NCBI RefSeq assembly: GCF_029223185.1
Contig: NZ_JARHUG010000014.1
Coordinates: 61,306-125,305, forward strand
Reading direction: 5' to 3'
DNA: 64,000 nucleotides
Origin: Aliiglaciecola sp. CAU 1673
Lineage (GTDB): Bacteria; Pseudomonadota; Gammaproteobacteria; Enterobacterales; Alteromonadaceae
Shown in pieces: positions 42,103-51,057 of this stretch. Within the stretch, counting starts at the first letter, position 1. The number at the start of each line of letters is the position of its first letter. The position numbers were made by a program, and so were the translations under genes. The notes beneath the pieces were generated by a model. The model made no database searches. It saw only the letters and a list, made by a program, of their open reading frames with translations, and was not told the origin of the DNA.

Positions 42103-42358
42103 CCGTCATTCCCGAATGCTGTAATCGGGAGCTTGCCCGCATGCAGTAAGCGGGCATCCATCAAGCACCTCTGTTGTATTTAAAATAGACTCCCGCTAAC
42201 TACATGCGGGAGCGACCGAGTAGTCTGATGAAAAAGAGACCACCAAACACATTGCAAGTCCCTTGCAGGTCGTCATGCCCGAATGTGGTTATCGGGCATC
42301 CATCAGATCGCAGAGTATTGTCAGACATAGACTCCCGCTAACTACATGCGGGAGCGTA
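42103..42358. repeat. Hairpin-repeat cluster 3
   Basis: Modules GTCATTCCCGAATGCTGTAATCGGGA, GCCCGCATGCAGTAAGCGGGC, two copies of TAGACTCCCGCTAACTACATGCGGGAGCG broken by spacer, and GCCCGAATGTGGTTATCGGGC (each palindromic). The part at 42140-42215 matches the 360-bp array unit at 36 kb (CATCAAGCACCTCTGTTGTATTTAAAATAG). It ends 8 bases after the stop of the diguanylate cyclase gene. Confidence 0.85.
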
Positions 42359-42365
42359 AGGTGCC

Positions 42366-44114
42366 TTATTGCGGCCGTAAATCCATTTTCAGGTTCAGGT
42401 CTTCTTCATAGCGGTAAACCCGGTTGCGGCCCTGCTCCTTGGAATGGTAAAGGGCCTTATCCGCACAGCCATAGAGGCTGTCAAAGACATAGCCACAGAC
42501 AGTAGAGTCAGATACGCCAAAACTGGCGGTGATCTGAAATTTCTCACCGCTGGGGCGGGTATCAATAGCGGCAATGGCCTTACGGCAGGCCTCGGCAATT
42601 TCCATGGCTTTATTTAAGCTACAGCCAGGCAGCACCAGACCAAATTCTTCACCGCCCATACGGCCGATAATATCCTGCTGGCGACAAACGCTTTGACAGG
42701 CGGCCACAGCAGCCTTTAACGCCCAGTCACCGACCTGATGGCCATAGGTGTCGTTAATCCGTTTAAACAGATCCAAATCGAAAATAATAAAGCTAAGGGG
42801 CTGCGCACTTTTTTGATGGTACTTAAGCGCAGATTCGGCCATCTGGGTAAAATGATGGCGATTAGCAATGCCAGTCAGATCATCAGTTTGTGCCTGTTGG
42901 CGCATCTGTAAATGCAAACGACGGTTTTTATAGGCCCAAAGCACAACCAGCAGGATCACCAGCATTAAAAAGGCCATAAAGAGACGATCGTTTTGCTGCT
43001 CCTGCTTAGTTAAACGCGCTTCGGTCTTAAGCAGGGAGTTCTCTTTGTCCAACAGGGCAATCTGATTGGCCCTTTCTATGGCATCGTGTTTGGCTTGTTG
43101 GATGGCTAGTTGTTTGGCCTTAACTTCGTCTATATAAGCTCTATCAGCTTCAGCAAACTTTTTGTAATAAAATAATGCTTCATCTGGCTTTCCTTGAAGT
43201 TCAGCAACTTGATATAGAGTTCTGAAAGCACTGACAGTTGGTCTCGTGTTTCCAAGGTTTTTTGCAACATCTAAAGACTTATTTGCACTTTCCACTGCTT
43301 TAGAGTACTCACCCTCATGCATATGTATGAGAGCTGTGAGAGAATAATGTTCTGAAATGGCCGGTGGATAATGTGTATTGTTAACTAGTTCCAAACTAGC
43401 TTGAAGTTTACTTTTGGCACGCTCAAATTCTGATTTCCCTATCAAATTATTCGCTTCCCAAATGAATGCCATGCTACTCGCAACAAATTCTTTTTCTTTG
43501 TCACAAACTTCAATGAGCTTACTTAGAGCTTCCTCCGATACGTCTTTTTTTAACTCGAATTTTGCTTCTATGGAAAGGTTGAGTGCGAAGCAAAGATTTC
43601 TGGGGTCAGGAGCATCGTCAATGACACCCTCAGCATAACTTAATCCCGACTCATATTCTCCCACTTGATTTAAAAATATTGCCAGCGCCACCAAACCGAT
43701 GTGTTTAATTTTTCCTGATGAGTTTTGGATTTTTTTTTGTAACTCTAGAACCCATGAGTATCCATTTTCAAAATCTCTCATAAGTCCGTACAGATTTACT
43801 ATTGATGCAGCAGACCTAACCTTCAAGTCTTCATGCTTAGAGTTTTTATATACGGCTTTGTATCCAGATATTCCGTCCTCTAAGTTCCCTGAATAAGCAG
43901 TCATGTAACTTTCTAAGAAATGTAAATAGTCAAGTTCTTTCTGTGATAAACTTTCTTTCTTACCGTCAAGCTCTTGCAGTATTTTTTTGAAAGTAAATGT
44001 GTCTTTGCTTTTTATGGAGTCTGCGTATTCAAGAGAGTTGAACTCATCGCCGGCGAATGAAATCCCGACGATGAAATTCATAACAAGGAAAATTATAAGA
44101 AAAGAGGCGTTCAT
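42366..44114 (-). CDS. Diguanylate cyclase with periplasmic TPR-like sensor
   Basis: A 582-residue protein. A signal peptide (SFLIIFLVMNFIVGISFA) precedes about 340 residues of periplasmic helical repeats (AFIWEANNLIGKSEFERAKSKL; HEGEYSKAVESANKSLDVAKNL; GKPDEALFYYKKFAEA), then a coiled coil, one transmembrane helix (LFMAFLMLVILLVVLWAY) and a GGDEF domain. The active site is GRMGGEEFGLVLPG, with the inhibitory I-site RQQD five residues before it. It should make c-di-GMP in response to a periplasmic signal. Its ATG overlaps the TAA of the upstream peptide gene (TAATG). Composition changes abruptly near 43.12 kb: the sensor part is AT-rich, the GGDEF part has host composition. Confidence 0.92.
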   Translation of the reverse strand: MNASFLIIFLVMNFIVGISFAGDEFNSLEYADSIKSKDTFTFKKILQELDGKKESLSQKELDYLHFLESYMTAYSGNLEDGISGYKAVYKNSKHEDLKVRSAASIVNLYGLMRDFENGYSWVLELQKKIQNSSGKIKHIGLVALAIFLNQVGEYESGLSYAEGVIDDAPDPRNLCFALNLSIEAKFELKKDVSEEALSKLIEVCDKEKEFVASSMAFIWEANNLIGKSEFERAKSKLQASLELVNNTHYPPAISEHYSLTALIHMHEGEYSKAVESANKSLDVAKNLGNTRPTVSAFRTLYQVAELQGKPDEALFYYKKFAEADRAYIDEVKAKQLAIQQAKHDAIERANQIALLDKENSLLKTEARLTKQEQQNDRLFMAFLMLVILLVVLWAYKNRRLHLQMRQQAQTDDLTGIANRHHFTQMAESALKYHQKSAQPLSFIIFDLDLFKRINDTYGHQVGDWALKAAVAACQSVCRQQDIIGRMGGEEFGLVLPGCSLNKAMEIAEACRKAIAAIDTRPSGEKFQITASFGVSDSTVCGYVFDSLYGCADKALYHSKEQGRNRVYRYEEDLNLKMDLRPQ

Positions 44115-44320
44115 TACTGAATTATATTTTCGTCTTTCTTCTCTTCATCTTTCTCGTCGCTGGACTCATCCTTATCATCTTCTGCAGGAACCATGAGGCA
44201 CCATATCTTTTGACTGCCTAGATCTTCAATATCAAGTGATGATAAATCTATTCCTGAACCTTGATGATTCTTTAAAGAAGCTGTAGAGCCAATTTTCTCT
44301 AATATTTGAATTGCTGTCAT
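44114..44320 (-). CDS. 68-residue peptide with LExIG leader, single Cys and acidic tail, coupled to the diguanylate cyclase
   Basis: The product starts MTAIQILEKIGSTASLKNHQ, continues through a short middle (DLSSLDIEDLGSQ), then KIWCLMVPAEDD, with Cys41, and ends in about 20 mostly Asp/Glu/Lys residues. It has no signal peptide or membrane helix. The leader, compact hydrophobic/Cys segment and charged tail resemble a precursor-type or signalling peptide, but I cannot name a family. GAGGTG stands six bases before the ATG. Its TAA overlaps the cyclase ATG, so the two are translated together. A decayed relative with the same LExIG motif is at 45042-45209. Confidence 0.72.
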   Translation of the reverse strand: MTAIQILEKIGSTASLKNHQGSGIDLSSLDIEDLGSQKIWCLMVPAEDDKDESSDEKDEEKKDENIIQ

Positions 44321-44374: not shown

Positions 44375-44917
44375 TTAGTTAAATTTCTTTGTGGAAGTTT
44401 GATTGTACCATTTTTCTTTACTAAGAACGTATAGAGATACGTTCTTATCAAGCGCTGCTTTTTTTATAGGTTGTTCAACAAATCCAAGCCTTCTGACAAT
44501 TCTTAAGCTTGCGTAATGCGAAGGCTGGAATGATGCTCGTATAGCATCTAATCTTATGTTATCAAAAGCGTATTCTATTACACCTGTTAAAGCCTCTCTC
44601 GGAATGTTTTTCCCATTGGCATTGGGAATAATCATTATTCCAAGATCTGCCTGCTTATCCCCTGGAGATAACCACTGTAAACCTTGAACGCCGATAAACT
44701 GCCCTGAATCTTTGTTCTCAATTACCCATGTCAGGCGCGTTAATGAAGGGGAGTTGTTTTGTATTAGAGCTGAATTAAAATGCTGTTCTGATTTCTCTCG
44801 GTTAAACGGTGCAACAATCTTTCGCATTATTTTCTTATCCATGTAGAGGGCGCAGTAATTATCTCTATCGGATTCTAAAAGTGGGCGGCAGATGAGTCTT
44901 TTAGTTTGAAATTCCAT
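44375..44917 (-). CDS. GNAT acetyltransferase, RimJ/RimL type
   Basis: A 180-residue GNAT-fold protein: FQTKRLICRPLLESDRDNYCAL (typical RimJ/RimL start), WVIENKDSGQFIGVQGL, the acetyl-CoA-binding region IMIIPNANGKNIPREALTGVIEYAF, and SHYASLRIVRRLGFVEQ at the end. The substrate is unknown. The family acetylates N-termini of proteins as well as small molecules. It lies 54 bases upstream of the 68-residue peptide gene on the same strand, in the same AT-rich DNA, so it may be part of that unit. Confidence 0.85.
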   Translation of the reverse strand: MEFQTKRLICRPLLESDRDNYCALYMDKKIMRKIVAPFNREKSEQHFNSALIQNNSPSLTRLTWVIENKDSGQFIGVQGLQWLSPGDKQADLGIMIIPNANGKNIPREALTGVIEYAFDNIRLDAIRASFQPSHYASLRIVRRLGFVEQPIKKAALDKNVSLYVLSKEKWYNQTSTKKFN

Positions 44918-45477: not shown

Positions 45478-46287
45478 TTAGTTAGACTGAGCAAACTGCC
45501 TATCCAATTCCGCCAATCGATCAATTATCGCCTGGTTCTTTTGCATTTCTATGGCAGGCGGAATGGCCATGGTGGTGTGCTGATTAACCACCACGCTGGC
45601 GAAGTCCTTAAGCGCTATCCAATCAATCCGCGTGGGGTCGATAGGCAGCGTCGGGGCTTCATACAGCGCCACCTTATGCCCGGGCGGATAAATTTCCAGC
45701 AGCATTTCCAGCAGCACCTGGCGATAGGCGTTATCGGTAGAAAAACGCGCCGCCGAGCGGTCGCCGGCAATGCCTACCTGCCAAAGGATTAAATAAGCGC
45801 TGGCATCGATATTGCGTTTATAAAACATAAACTGGCTTGCTTCGAAATGCTGGCAGCCCACTTTGCCGGGATCGATACCCAAATCCGCATACAGGCAGTC
45901 TTCGGCGGACACGCCGGGCTCCATATGGGCGTCATAGCCTTCACTTCGGGCCACTTCAATCACTTTATGGGGCGCCCAGGCGAATACGCCGGGGTGACCA
46001 TAAAACGCGCCGACCACTTTTTTACCGGCGCGCACCTCGGTCATCATGGCTTCCACCATTTCCCGGTAAGTAATGCGGCGATCTTTACCTTCCTGATAAT
46101 GCACTTGCAGGCTGCGTACATCGGGGTTCATTTCTTTAACCCACATTTCCACTATGGCGTTAGACACTCCACAAAAGACCACATCGGCCTGTTCGATATA
46201 GCTACGGCACAATGGTGCGATATGGGAGCCTAAGGTCATGCCGATCCCGACACAGACGATACTGCCTTGCTGTTGTTGGTTTTCCAT
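45478..46287 (-). CDS. SonM-like (borosin-type) SAM-dependent peptide N-methyltransferase, tetrapyrrole-methylase fold
   Basis: A 269-residue protein of the tetrapyrrole-methylase fold. The N-terminal SAM region is IVCVGIGMTLGSHIAPLCRSY. The core ALYGHPGVFA is seen as FYGHPGVFAWAPHKVIEVA, then MEPGVSAEDCLYADLGIDPG, CQHFEASQFMFY and HKVALYEAPTLPI. From memory these match SonM of Shewanella, which alpha-N-methylates the backbone of its separate borosin precursor SonA, better than cobalamin enzymes. Catalytic Tyr/Arg residues are plausible in YREMVEAMM and RRITYREM. No SonA-like precursor lies next to it. An alternative is a related methyltransferase with another peptide substrate. Confidence 0.8.
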   Translation of the reverse strand: MENQQQQGSIVCVGIGMTLGSHIAPLCRSYIEQADVVFCGVSNAIVEMWVKEMNPDVRSLQVHYQEGKDRRITYREMVEAMMTEVRAGKKVVGAFYGHPGVFAWAPHKVIEVARSEGYDAHMEPGVSAEDCLYADLGIDPGKVGCQHFEASQFMFYKRNIDASAYLILWQVGIAGDRSAARFSTDNAYRQVLLEMLLEIYPPGHKVALYEAPTLPIDPTRIDWIALKDFASVVVNQHTTMAIPPAIEMQKNQAIIDRLAELDRQFAQSN

Positions 46288-48845: not shown

Positions 48846-49765
48846 CCCGCTTACCACTTCGTGGCGGAATATGCCCGAATGTTCATGATACGAAGCAGTA
48901 ATCGGGCATCCATATTCAATCGGTACAGCTTCGAAAATAGACTCCCGCTTAAAGCATGCGGGAGTGACCAAACCCAAACGGTGGGGGATAGGTTCCCGCT
49001 AACCACTTTGTGACGGGAATATGCGGGAGTGTTCCCTTTTACTACATAAGGGAACGACGGGGAGGGATGCACAAATGTTTCATGCTGTCATTCCCGAATG
49101 CTGTTATCGGGAACATGCCCGAATGTAGTAATCGGGCATCTACCACACAGTTTGGTTGAATTTGAAATAGACTCCCGCTTAAAGCATGCGGGAGTGACCA
49201 AACCCAAACGGTGGGGGATAGGTTCCCGCTAACCACTTTGTGACGGGAATATGCGGGAGTGTTCCCTTTTACTACATAAGGGAACGACGGGGAGGGATGC
49301 ACAAATGTTTCATGCTGTCATTCCCGAATGCTGTTATCGGGAACATGCCCGAATGTAGTAATCGGGCATCTACCACACAGTTTGGTTGAGTTTGAAATAG
49401 ACTCCCGCTAAAGGCATGCGGGAGTGACCAAACCCGAACGGTGGGGGGATAGGTTCCCGCTTACCACTTCGTGACGGGAATATGCGGGAGTGTTCCCTTT
49501 TACTACATAAGGGAACGACGGGGAGGGATGCACAAATGTTTCATGCTGTCATTCCCGAATGCTGTTATCGGGAACATGCCCGAATGCTGTTATCGGGCAT
49601 CTACCACACAGTTTGGTTGAATTTGAAATAGACTCCCGCTAAAGGCATGCGGGAGTGACCAAACCCCAACGATGGGAATGTTCCCATACATATCGGAGGT
49701 GACAGAAAGGACTCCTGTCATCCCCGCATGTTCTCGTCACGAAGTGGTTAGCGGGGATCCATTAT
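48846..49765. repeat. Hairpin-repeat cluster 6, a ~230-bp tandem array
   Basis: The block beginning ACTCCCGCTTAAAGCATGCG at 48941 recurs at 49171, 49401 and (partial) 49632: three full copies of about 230 bp that differ by a few bases. Each carries the modules CCCGC...GCGGGAGTGACC, GGTTCCCGCT...CGGGAATATGCGG, GTTCCC TTTTACTACAT AAGGGAAC and GTCATTCCCG...CGGGAAC. Flanking single modules complete the cluster. There is no gene in the 1,028 bases; apparent frames repeat with the array. Confidence 0.9.
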
Positions 49766-51057
49766 GAAGAAAAGGTATTCACCAAATGCTCTTGAAGCAC
49801 AGCTGGCACCGGGGCTTTCTGGGCAAAGTGGATAACGCCGGTGGTGTCTTCACTACGATCAAAAATGCTGTAGTAGTTATTTAAAAAGGGCAGGCCGACA
49901 ATAGTCTGATTGGGCCACCCCGGCACCTGGGTAAACTTAAAATAGGCCTGGTTGGGCTTAGGGGCATGCACCTGCCAATAGGTATCCGGGCTCATTGTCA
50001 GGGTCACCGGCTCAGCGCGTTCGCCTGCAAAGGTAAAATGAATGGGCGGCCATTGTGTCAAATCCAGCCCGGCCATATCGATACCTACTTCTTCGCCGGT
50101 GAAGGTTTCAAAGGGTTTAAGCAGAGTGGCAAAGTCGGCATTGATATCGGTCAGCGCGGTCAGCAAAGCGCTGAATAATGAGCTTGGCAGCACCATGATA
50201 CTGGCGCCGCTGTCGACTATGGCATTGGTGCGATAGCCTTGAATATCCTTGGCATCCAGTGGTGGCGCGGCAATGGGCTCAGCCTCCCCGACCTGCATAC
50301 TCAACAGATTGACGTTGTAGTATTTGTCATCCAGCACTTTGATGGTTTTTGGCTCACCTTGATAGAGGTCGCGATGCAGCTTGGGTTTACCCAGCACAAA
50401 CAGGCCGTGATTAAGCGGATGGGCCGCCAGCTGCTCTTGGCTTCGCTCCTTATCTGTTTGGTAAATGCTGGAGCGGTGGGTCAGCAGGGCAAATTGATTT
50501 CCCACCACGCCCTGTTCTTCTAATTGGCTAAAGTAGGGCTGAATGGTGTCTCTGGGATATTGGTGTAGAAAATGCAGATAATCGCTGACCGATTGCGCCT
50601 GATGCTCGGCAGACATTAAGTAGGGATAGCTCTGTAATGGCGACACCTGCTGTTGCTGTAAGTAGGCGCTGATATCATAGGCCGGATTCAACCCCGCATA
50701 CGCCAGCCCCATAATGCCATCGGCCTGGCCAAAACTGCCCGCTTGCTCCTTGGCGGTCACCGCCACATGCACGTCGTTAAGGTCTGCGGCGTGCTCTAAC
50801 AGGCCAATACCCACTTTGGTTTGGATCAGCGGACCATACCATCCCCCTTTGCCGTAGCGAACATCCTGTGCCAGGGTAGACGCCTTAAGGCTCTTATCGC
50901 TTTCAGGTTGATAACGATGATTACTGACCACCAGGGTACTGCTGCCTGTATCCAAGACCAAATTGGCCGGATGGGCAGGATGACCGATATGGACTCTGGC
51001 GCTGTAGCCGCCCTTGGTAAACACATTTACCAGTGGCACGCGAACCGAATGAGGCAT
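49762..51057 (-). CDS. Pepsin-like (family A1) aspartic protease, shewasin type
   Basis: A 431-residue protein with both catalytic motifs of two-lobed aspartic proteases: NLVLDTGSSTLVVS (Asp36) and AIVDSGASIMVLPSS (near residue 281). A flap Tyr region YGKGGWYGP and the C-terminal TIVGLPFLNNYYSIFDRSE are also present. No signal peptide or propeptide is visible, as in the bacterial pepsin homologue shewasin A from Shewanella, so a cytoplasmic enzyme is likely. Bacterial A1 proteases are rare. The gene has repeats at both ends, reading into its last codon at the 3' side. The ribosome site is weak. Confidence 0.9.
   Translation of the reverse strand: MPHSVRVPLVNVFTKGGYSARVHIGHPAHPANLVLDTGSSTLVVSNHRYQPESDKSLKASTLAQDVRYGKGGWYGPLIQTKVGIGLLEHAADLNDVHVAVTAKEQAGSFGQADGIMGLAYAGLNPAYDISAYLQQQQVSPLQSYPYLMSAEHQAQSVSDYLHFLHQYPRDTIQPYFSQLEEQGVVGNQFALLTHRSSIYQTDKERSQEQLAAHPLNHGLFVLGKPKLHRDLYQGEPKTIKVLDDKYYNVNLLSMQVGEAEPIAAPPLDAKDIQGYRTNAIVDSGASIMVLPSSLFSALLTALTDINADFATLLKPFETFTGEEVGIDMAGLDLTQWPPIHFTFAGERAEPVTLTMSPDTYWQVHAPKPNQAYFKFTQVPGWPNQTIVGLPFLNNYYSIFDRSEDTTGVIHFAQKAPVPAVLQEHLVNTFSS

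Follow-up and report, generated by a model that had tools for sequence, protein, structure and literature searches.

A likely split-borosin precursor gene next to a TPR-GGDEF diguanylate cyclase gene in Aliiglaciecola sp. CAU 1673

Genes at the locus

The subject of this work is a short peptide gene on a 64,000-nt stretch of DNA from Aliiglaciecola sp. CAU 1673 (contig NZ_JARHUG010000014.1, positions 61,306 to 125,305; the whole stretch is called the window below, and coordinates are counted from its first letter). The gene directly precedes that of a diguanylate cyclase with an exported tetratricopeptide repeat (TPR) sensor. From sequence comparisons we find that the peptide is likely the precursor of a ribosomally synthesized and post-translationally modified peptide (RiPP) of the split-borosin type, and we suggest that its product could be read by the TPR sensor.

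The peptide gene, identified as an open reading frame (ORF) and supported by its relatives and by the selection acting on them, occupies 44114..44320 on the minus strand, as do all genes of the cassette described here, and encodes 68 residues plus a stop codon. Residues 1–37 (44210..44320) form a shortened LEKIG leader, which resembles the borosin-binding domain (BBD) when the family profile A4 is compared with SonA; residues 38–49 (44174..44209) are the putative core, KIWCLMVPAEDD, supported by the Cys and Pro columns of a 118-row alignment; and residues 50–68 (44117..44173) make up an acidic tail evident from the sequence. No Sec signal peptide is seen in it. The peptide and cyclase ORFs overlap by one base, as TAATG, and the description in the first-pass annotation of a 68-residue peptide whose TAA overlaps the ATG of a TPR-GGDEF gene proved exact to the base. 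By eye, GAGGTG precedes the peptide ATG and no Shine-Dalgarno motif is seen upstream of the cyclase start in the window, and translational coupling of the two genes would therefore fit.

The cyclase (582 aa, 42366..44114; PF00990, E 6e-43) consists of an N-terminal hydrophobic signal-like stretch, a TPR sensor domain at residues 23–377 (42984..44048; defined by alignment A3, an AF2 model with pLDDT 93.6 and fold matches), a transmembrane segment near residues 378–396 and a GGDEF domain matching PF00990 at residues 408–565 (42420..42893). GGEEF is intact at residue 487, as is RQQD (the RxxD I-site) ahead of it, so that the earlier reading as a secreted TPR-like sensor with an intact active site and I-site holds. 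Cys175 and Cys204 of the TPR domain are invariant in 29 of 29 sequences in alignment A3. In the fold search, Rap proteins of the RRNPP type rank first, although other solved TPRs score equally or nearly so. The TPR fold is as close to the RRNPP receptors as to any solved TPR, and the likeness that had been proposed may hold for it; the N-terminus is not of the cytosolic helix-turn-helix (HTH) or phosphatase type.

Three further genes of interest lie upstream on the same strand: those of a GNAT acetyltransferase (180 aa, 44375..44917; PF13302, E 1.2e-25), of a SonM-like peptide backbone α-N-methyltransferase two genes upstream of the peptide (269 aa, 45478..46287; PF00590, TP_methylase), and of a shewasin-type pepsin-like aspartic protease (431 aa, 49762..51057; PF00026, E 1.7e-19), for which BACE2 and BACE1 are nearest in the PDB. 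The protease has the motifs DTGS at residue 36 and DSGA at residue 282, and no signal peptide is seen in its sequence. All three had been overlooked by the first-pass annotation, whose frame was to that extent incomplete.

The peptide family and its kinship with split borosins

As a single query the window peptide matched only itself among 5.8 billion proteins, and no NCBIfam family fitted it. In 147 genomes of the taxonomic family, searching turned up 40 weak peptide places, spread over 37 genomes; at 12 of the 20 places that were fetched (own included) a relative lies directly ahead of a TPR-GGDEF gene, and at the other eight it is absent. Profile A1, built from those 12 peptides, gave 43 protein matches, own included; among 394 genomes of the order it located 53 peptide places, in 48 genomes. 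Relatives beside the cyclase occur across the Gammaproteobacteria, and 118 distinct triples of peptide, cyclase and methyltransferase share the same arrangement. In the core columns of their alignment, Cys accounts for 81 of 109 letters and Pro for 94 of 107; the family has an (I/V)-V-C-x-x-x-P-A-E-(D/E) block directly after the leader, and this core motif is common to many genera. The pooled dN/dS was 0.195 over 25 pairs of relatives with at least 60% amino acid identity, a selection biased towards low values; no peptide was used twice and the window peptide is in none of the pairs. Judging from these comparisons, the peptide is a real gene, under purifying selection in close pairs of relatives. 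The frame is kept beside TPR-GGDEF genes and the dN/dS among its relatives is not near neutral, the two points on which the first-pass annotation had proposed to check it. The distance between peptide and cyclase varies among the triples from overlaps to +173 nt, and coupling is not a conserved trait of these pairs; the large overlaps probably reflect ORF calls from the longest start.

The methyltransferase places this family among the borosins. Its closest solved relatives in the PDB are SonM of the SonM–SonA complex (7ltc, E 2.1e-71) and OphMA-type enzymes. Residues Y64, R70, Y74 and Y96 of the window enzyme correspond to Y58, R67, Y71 and Y93 of SonM, which are conserved in 41 of 41 aligned proteins and have been tested by mutation (PMC8429565). 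In the 394-genome sample every one of the 53 peptide places has a methyltransferase gene within 5 kb, and 39 wider peptide loci reveal a recurring cassette of GNAT, methyltransferase, peptide and TPR-GGDEF, frequently preceded by a pepsin-like gene. On the peptide side, profile A4 (76 peptides) has the SonA chains as its top matches (E 2.7e-5, SonA residues 1–55), the next, unrelated match reaching only E 0.54. As the BBD of SonA is given as residues 1–53 (PMC8429565), this match identifies the leader of the family as a BBD; by eye, the core KIWCLMVPAEDD is placed about where the methylated core of SonA lies. Three points weigh against this assignment: the leader of the window peptide itself is shortened, the smaller profile A1 missed SonA, and the AF2 model of the window peptide is poor (pLDDT 65), with one helix at residues 3–14 against the five helices of a complete BBD. 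As far as sequence comparison goes, we nevertheless regard the case for borosin membership of the locus as strong. The layout, which had been taken as undescribed, is therefore not new as a class: the locus is of the split-borosin RiPP type, with a leader in the BBD family and a core at the SonA core position.

With SonM/SonA of Shewanella oneidensis, a split (type IV) borosin (PMC8429565), the locus shares a separate α-N-methyltransferase, a short precursor with, at family level, a BBD leader, the four kept residues and a hydrophobic stretch after the leader. Unlike SonA, the peptides here have a CxxxPAEDDE core and an acidic tail, and the leader in the window is shortened; unlike the SonM/SonA pair, the cassette includes a GNAT and a pepsin. 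A Nif11-type leader was considered and rejected, as only one of 12 members had a Nif11 match, at E 0.15. A plasmid search returned one 53-bp match and nothing relevant.

Some members of the family depart from the common form. A Tahibacter precursor (L190:11373-11792) has four near-identical C-terminal units (DKDEEEIRxAAxxGG-like), and from these repeated units the C-terminal segment may, besides the Cys-Pro block, be a released unit. In the Steroidobacter and Povalibacter precursors (L146, L150) long Lys-rich tails replace the acidic ones. One locus (L072, genome G345) has a pepsin shortened to 104 aa, no TPR-GGDEF gene and two nearly identical peptides that lack the core Cys; this cassette has apparently decayed.

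The TPR sensor and the pepsin as partners of the peptide

At least 547 methyltransferase relatives were found in named genomes, and the best 80 loci, including those of Shewanella, Rheinheimera, Colwellia, Rhodanobacter, Dyella and Lysobacter, were fetched; the figures describe this nearest clade. TPR genes are present at 79 of these loci, TPR-GGDEF genes at 77 and peptides at 77, and a GNAT relative lies within 3 kb at 53. Two or more peptides occur at 18 loci and two or more TPR-GGDEF genes at 13, several in the order peptide-receptor-peptide-receptor. In the 394-genome sample a TPR gene lies within 5 kb of 51 of the 53 peptide places, both exceptions being in the decayed G345 locus, and within 5 kb of at least 109 of 143 methyltransferase places; among the TPR matches listed, 130 of 150 have a methyltransferase within 5 kb. 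The output domain is less constant: a histidine kinase replaces the cyclase in L082 (664 aa; HisKA and HATPase by Pfam), L248 and L249. Retention of the TPR sensor under changing outputs is what a ligand-receptor pairing of peptide product and TPR domain would predict, and the constancy of this partner supports the earlier pairing of the peptide with the sensor half of the cyclase.

SonA-like precursors in five other loci (L240, L241, L250, L252 and L257) also precede TPR-GGDEF genes. Those of L241 (E 9.7e-22, SonA chains only) and L252 (E 7e-18) match SonA, where E-values of short peptides against the PDB need care, as the L252 precursor also matches TAL-effector repeats at E 3e-10 and weaker. 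In the small-genome genus g58 (L244–L246), a methyltransferase and a SonA-like precursor are accompanied by two to four tandem TPR proteins, each about 355 aa long and with no output domain detected. Further TPR-GGDEF genes of the same family occur in L251, L253, L254 and L258 with no methyltransferase in the 11–12 kb fetched, and these could be orphan receptors. In L055, L057, L059 and L066 the cyclase seemed to be missing, but it is present there and overlaps the peptide ORF call.

Co-variation was measured as distance correlations over the 118 triples, with kinship ignored. Divergence of the whole peptide gave partial r values of 0.40 with the TPR domain, 0.19 with the GGDEF domain and 0.15 with the methyltransferase; as none of 500 shuffles reached the observed value for any of the three, the shuffles give no ranking of the partners. 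When the TPR domain was cut to GGDEF length in six draws, its partial r was 0.32–0.38 against 0.18–0.23 for GGDEF. By region, divergence of the leader tracks the methyltransferase (0.38, bootstrap 0.27–0.49) and not GGDEF (0.00), and divergence of the tail tracks the TPR domain (0.29, bootstrap 0.17–0.39) and neither GGDEF (0.00) nor the methyltransferase (−0.12). This division of labour is contradicted in part, as the leader also tracks the TPR domain (0.33), the 13-column core alone tracks GGDEF (0.36) above TPR (0.16), and core and tail together track GGDEF (0.28) about equally with TPR (0.30). The expectation that peptide and sensor would co-vary is thus supported for the tail but not for the short core, which follows GGDEF better.

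For the pepsin, PF00026 at E 1e-5 gave matches in 40 of 394 genomes; of these 40, 34 belong to the 48 that have the peptide (Fisher p 1e-31, kinship ignored). By genus, 18 of 115 have a pepsin and 17 the peptide, with 12 shared (p 1.4e-8, kinship likewise ignored). The six PF00026 genomes without the peptide have another subfamily, since a cassette pepsin profile (E 1e-3) matches 24 of 30 fetched pepsin loci and none of these six. As PF00026 at this threshold missed some cassette pepsins (G231, G392, G467), the count was repeated with the window protein as probe at E 1e-10, the window genome serving as positive control. This probe found the pepsin in 39 of the 48 peptide genomes (in G345 only a remnant) and not in the other nine, in none of 47 genomes with the methyltransferase but without this peptide, and in none of the 160 sampled genomes that lack the methyltransferase. 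In genus g57, 9 of 10 genomes with the peptide have the pepsin versus 0 of 16 without, and in g58 11 of 11 versus 0 of 7, and because of these contrasts within genera common descent alone is insufficient to account for the link. On the other side, the pepsin is within 8 kb at just 24 of the 80 named loci, and pepsin and peptide are distant or on separate contigs in several genomes (e.g., G347, G409, G400 and G224). From linkage and co-occurrence we propose the pepsin as a candidate leader protease.

Proposed signalling role, alternatives and known systems

We consider it fairly probable that the peptide is a split-borosin precursor, predicted to be backbone-methylated, whose product acts as a signal to the TPR domain that the adjoining cyclase has in the periplasm, and that the cyclase would respond by making cyclic di-GMP (c-di-GMP). 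By homology to SonM/SonA, the leader would dock on the methyltransferase, which would α-N-methylate the hydrophobic core (KIWCLMVP). The cytosolic shewasin-type pepsin could free the core and tail, and the GNAT might cap the product, as linkage and co-occurrence suggest. The product would then arrive in the periplasm and bind the TPR superhelix, to which linkage, output-domain swapping, co-variation and fold all point. The GGDEF domain, with its intact active site, would in turn alter c-di-GMP, a histidine kinase taking its place at other loci. Methylation, cleavage, capping, passage, binding and the c-di-GMP change are all steps that we infer from sequence. There is no steady exporter in the cassette: among 22 neighbour families listed, the sole transporter-like one is an ABC ATPase, at 10 of 80 loci, on the upstream side of some of L122–L201 and mostly 4–8 kb from the methyltransferase. 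Backbone methylation is said to favour membrane permeability (PMC8429565), and unaided passage of the product is thus possible.

The missing exporter, together with intracellular synthesis, gives some room to the view that the locus, though of split-borosin type, uses the TPR-GGDEF protein to regulate production of the product or to sense a different ligand, and not as the receptor of the product. Of the 65 strongest TPR rows, five have no methyltransferase nearby, and the better fit of the short core to GGDEF than to TPR points the same way. We regard this as rather unlikely, as the TPR half is retained while the output changes, tandem peptide-receptor pairs adjoin one methyltransferase, and the tail tracks TPR and not GGDEF. 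That the product is instead an outward-acting natural product, a metallophore or antimicrobial, with the TPR cyclase in feedback or self-protection, we judge unlikely: GNATs can serve as tailoring or self-protection enzymes, and the fungal borosin omphalotin A is nematocidal (PMC11285071), but the core motif is kept over many genera, which as a general expectation is unlike weapons, and here too the lack of a steady exporter tells against such a role.

Very improbable, in our view, is that the peptide acts unmodified in the cytosol, as a partner or brake of the GGDEF domain or as a translational leader of the cyclase gene. The TAATG coupling with no Shine-Dalgarno motif seen ahead of the window cyclase, the lack of a visible signal peptide and the tracking of GGDEF by the core would suit it; the methyltransferase beside every one of the peptide places, the BBD match, the variable peptide-cyclase spacing, the tail that follows TPR and not GGDEF, and the existence of TPR-only partners would not. 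The same constant presence of the methyltransferase is why an unmodified secreted pheromone was not our first choice. A chance open frame beside the cyclase, which the fruitless single-sequence search might have suggested, has a negligible probability and is already refuted by the 118 triples at the same place and by the low dN/dS among relatives.

Receptors of the RRNPP family (Rap, NprR, PlcR and AimR) carry an N-terminal HTH or phosphatase bundle. The TPR domain described here differs in being exported, with a signal-like N-terminus and an invariant Cys pair, and in being joined through a transmembrane segment to GGDEF or HisKA without such an N-terminal part; for this comparison, the peptide here is without a Sec signal. 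The pepsin resembles the shewasins as described (PMC4814920) in belonging to family A1, in being BACE-like with DSGA as second motif and in showing no signal peptide. One of these marine bacterial pepsins is cytosolic and their in vivo function was open as of 2016 (PMC4814920); the words 'operon', 'methylase' and 'ggdef' do not occur in that paper. A published borosin type is drawn with a GGDEF domain, to judge from the Figure 1 legend of PMC11395268; this is a further likeness to our locus, and the main text of that paper mentions neither 'tpr' nor 'acetyltransferase'. In the main text of PMC8429565, 'ggdef', 'diguanylate' and 'acetyltransferase' are not mentioned. The literature searched, which did not include central borosin papers, contained no paper joining borosins with a diguanylate cyclase or tetratricopeptide, and none combining tetratricopeptide, diguanylate cyclase, signaling peptide and periplasmic. 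Split borosins are thus known, and as GGDEF is already named in a published borosin architecture the GGDEF link may be partly known; apparently new, as far as we have seen, are the TPR as constant partner with swapped outputs, the leader/tail co-variation and the pepsin link.

According to the 2021 SonMA paper (PMC8429565), no type IV pathway had yet been tied to a final product, and later work may differ. The cassette may answer both this and the question of the bacterial pepsins, as it suggests which receptor domain, output and protease go with a methylated peptide. If the proposal is true, ribosomal N-methylated peptides join the inputs of c-di-GMP signalling, and Gram-negative bacteria have an equivalent of the RRNPP pheromone systems whose receptor is periplasmic. 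We extend this, tentatively and short of an even chance, to a widespread Gram-negative form of signalling, in which split-borosin precursors would be backbone-methylated in the cytosol, released there by a pepsin, which would supply the missing role of the shewasins, and pass to the periplasm to be read by dedicated RRNPP-like TPR receptors. Output would be modular, by c-di-GMP, by phosphorelay or through a soluble binding protein, and such signalling would be the function of most gammaproteobacterial split borosins.

In the wider surroundings, the gene of a 657-aa β-propeller protein (PF09826, 46778-48751) lies between the pepsin and methyltransferase genes of the window; it is absent from that position in the Bowmanella dokdonensis locus (L087/L122), which has the same cassette. 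REP-like palindromic repeats (CCCGC...GCGGG) are found at 42109-42356 and at 48935-49678, the latter block, which lies between the β-propeller and pepsin genes, being a 230-bp direct repeat in 3–4 copies.
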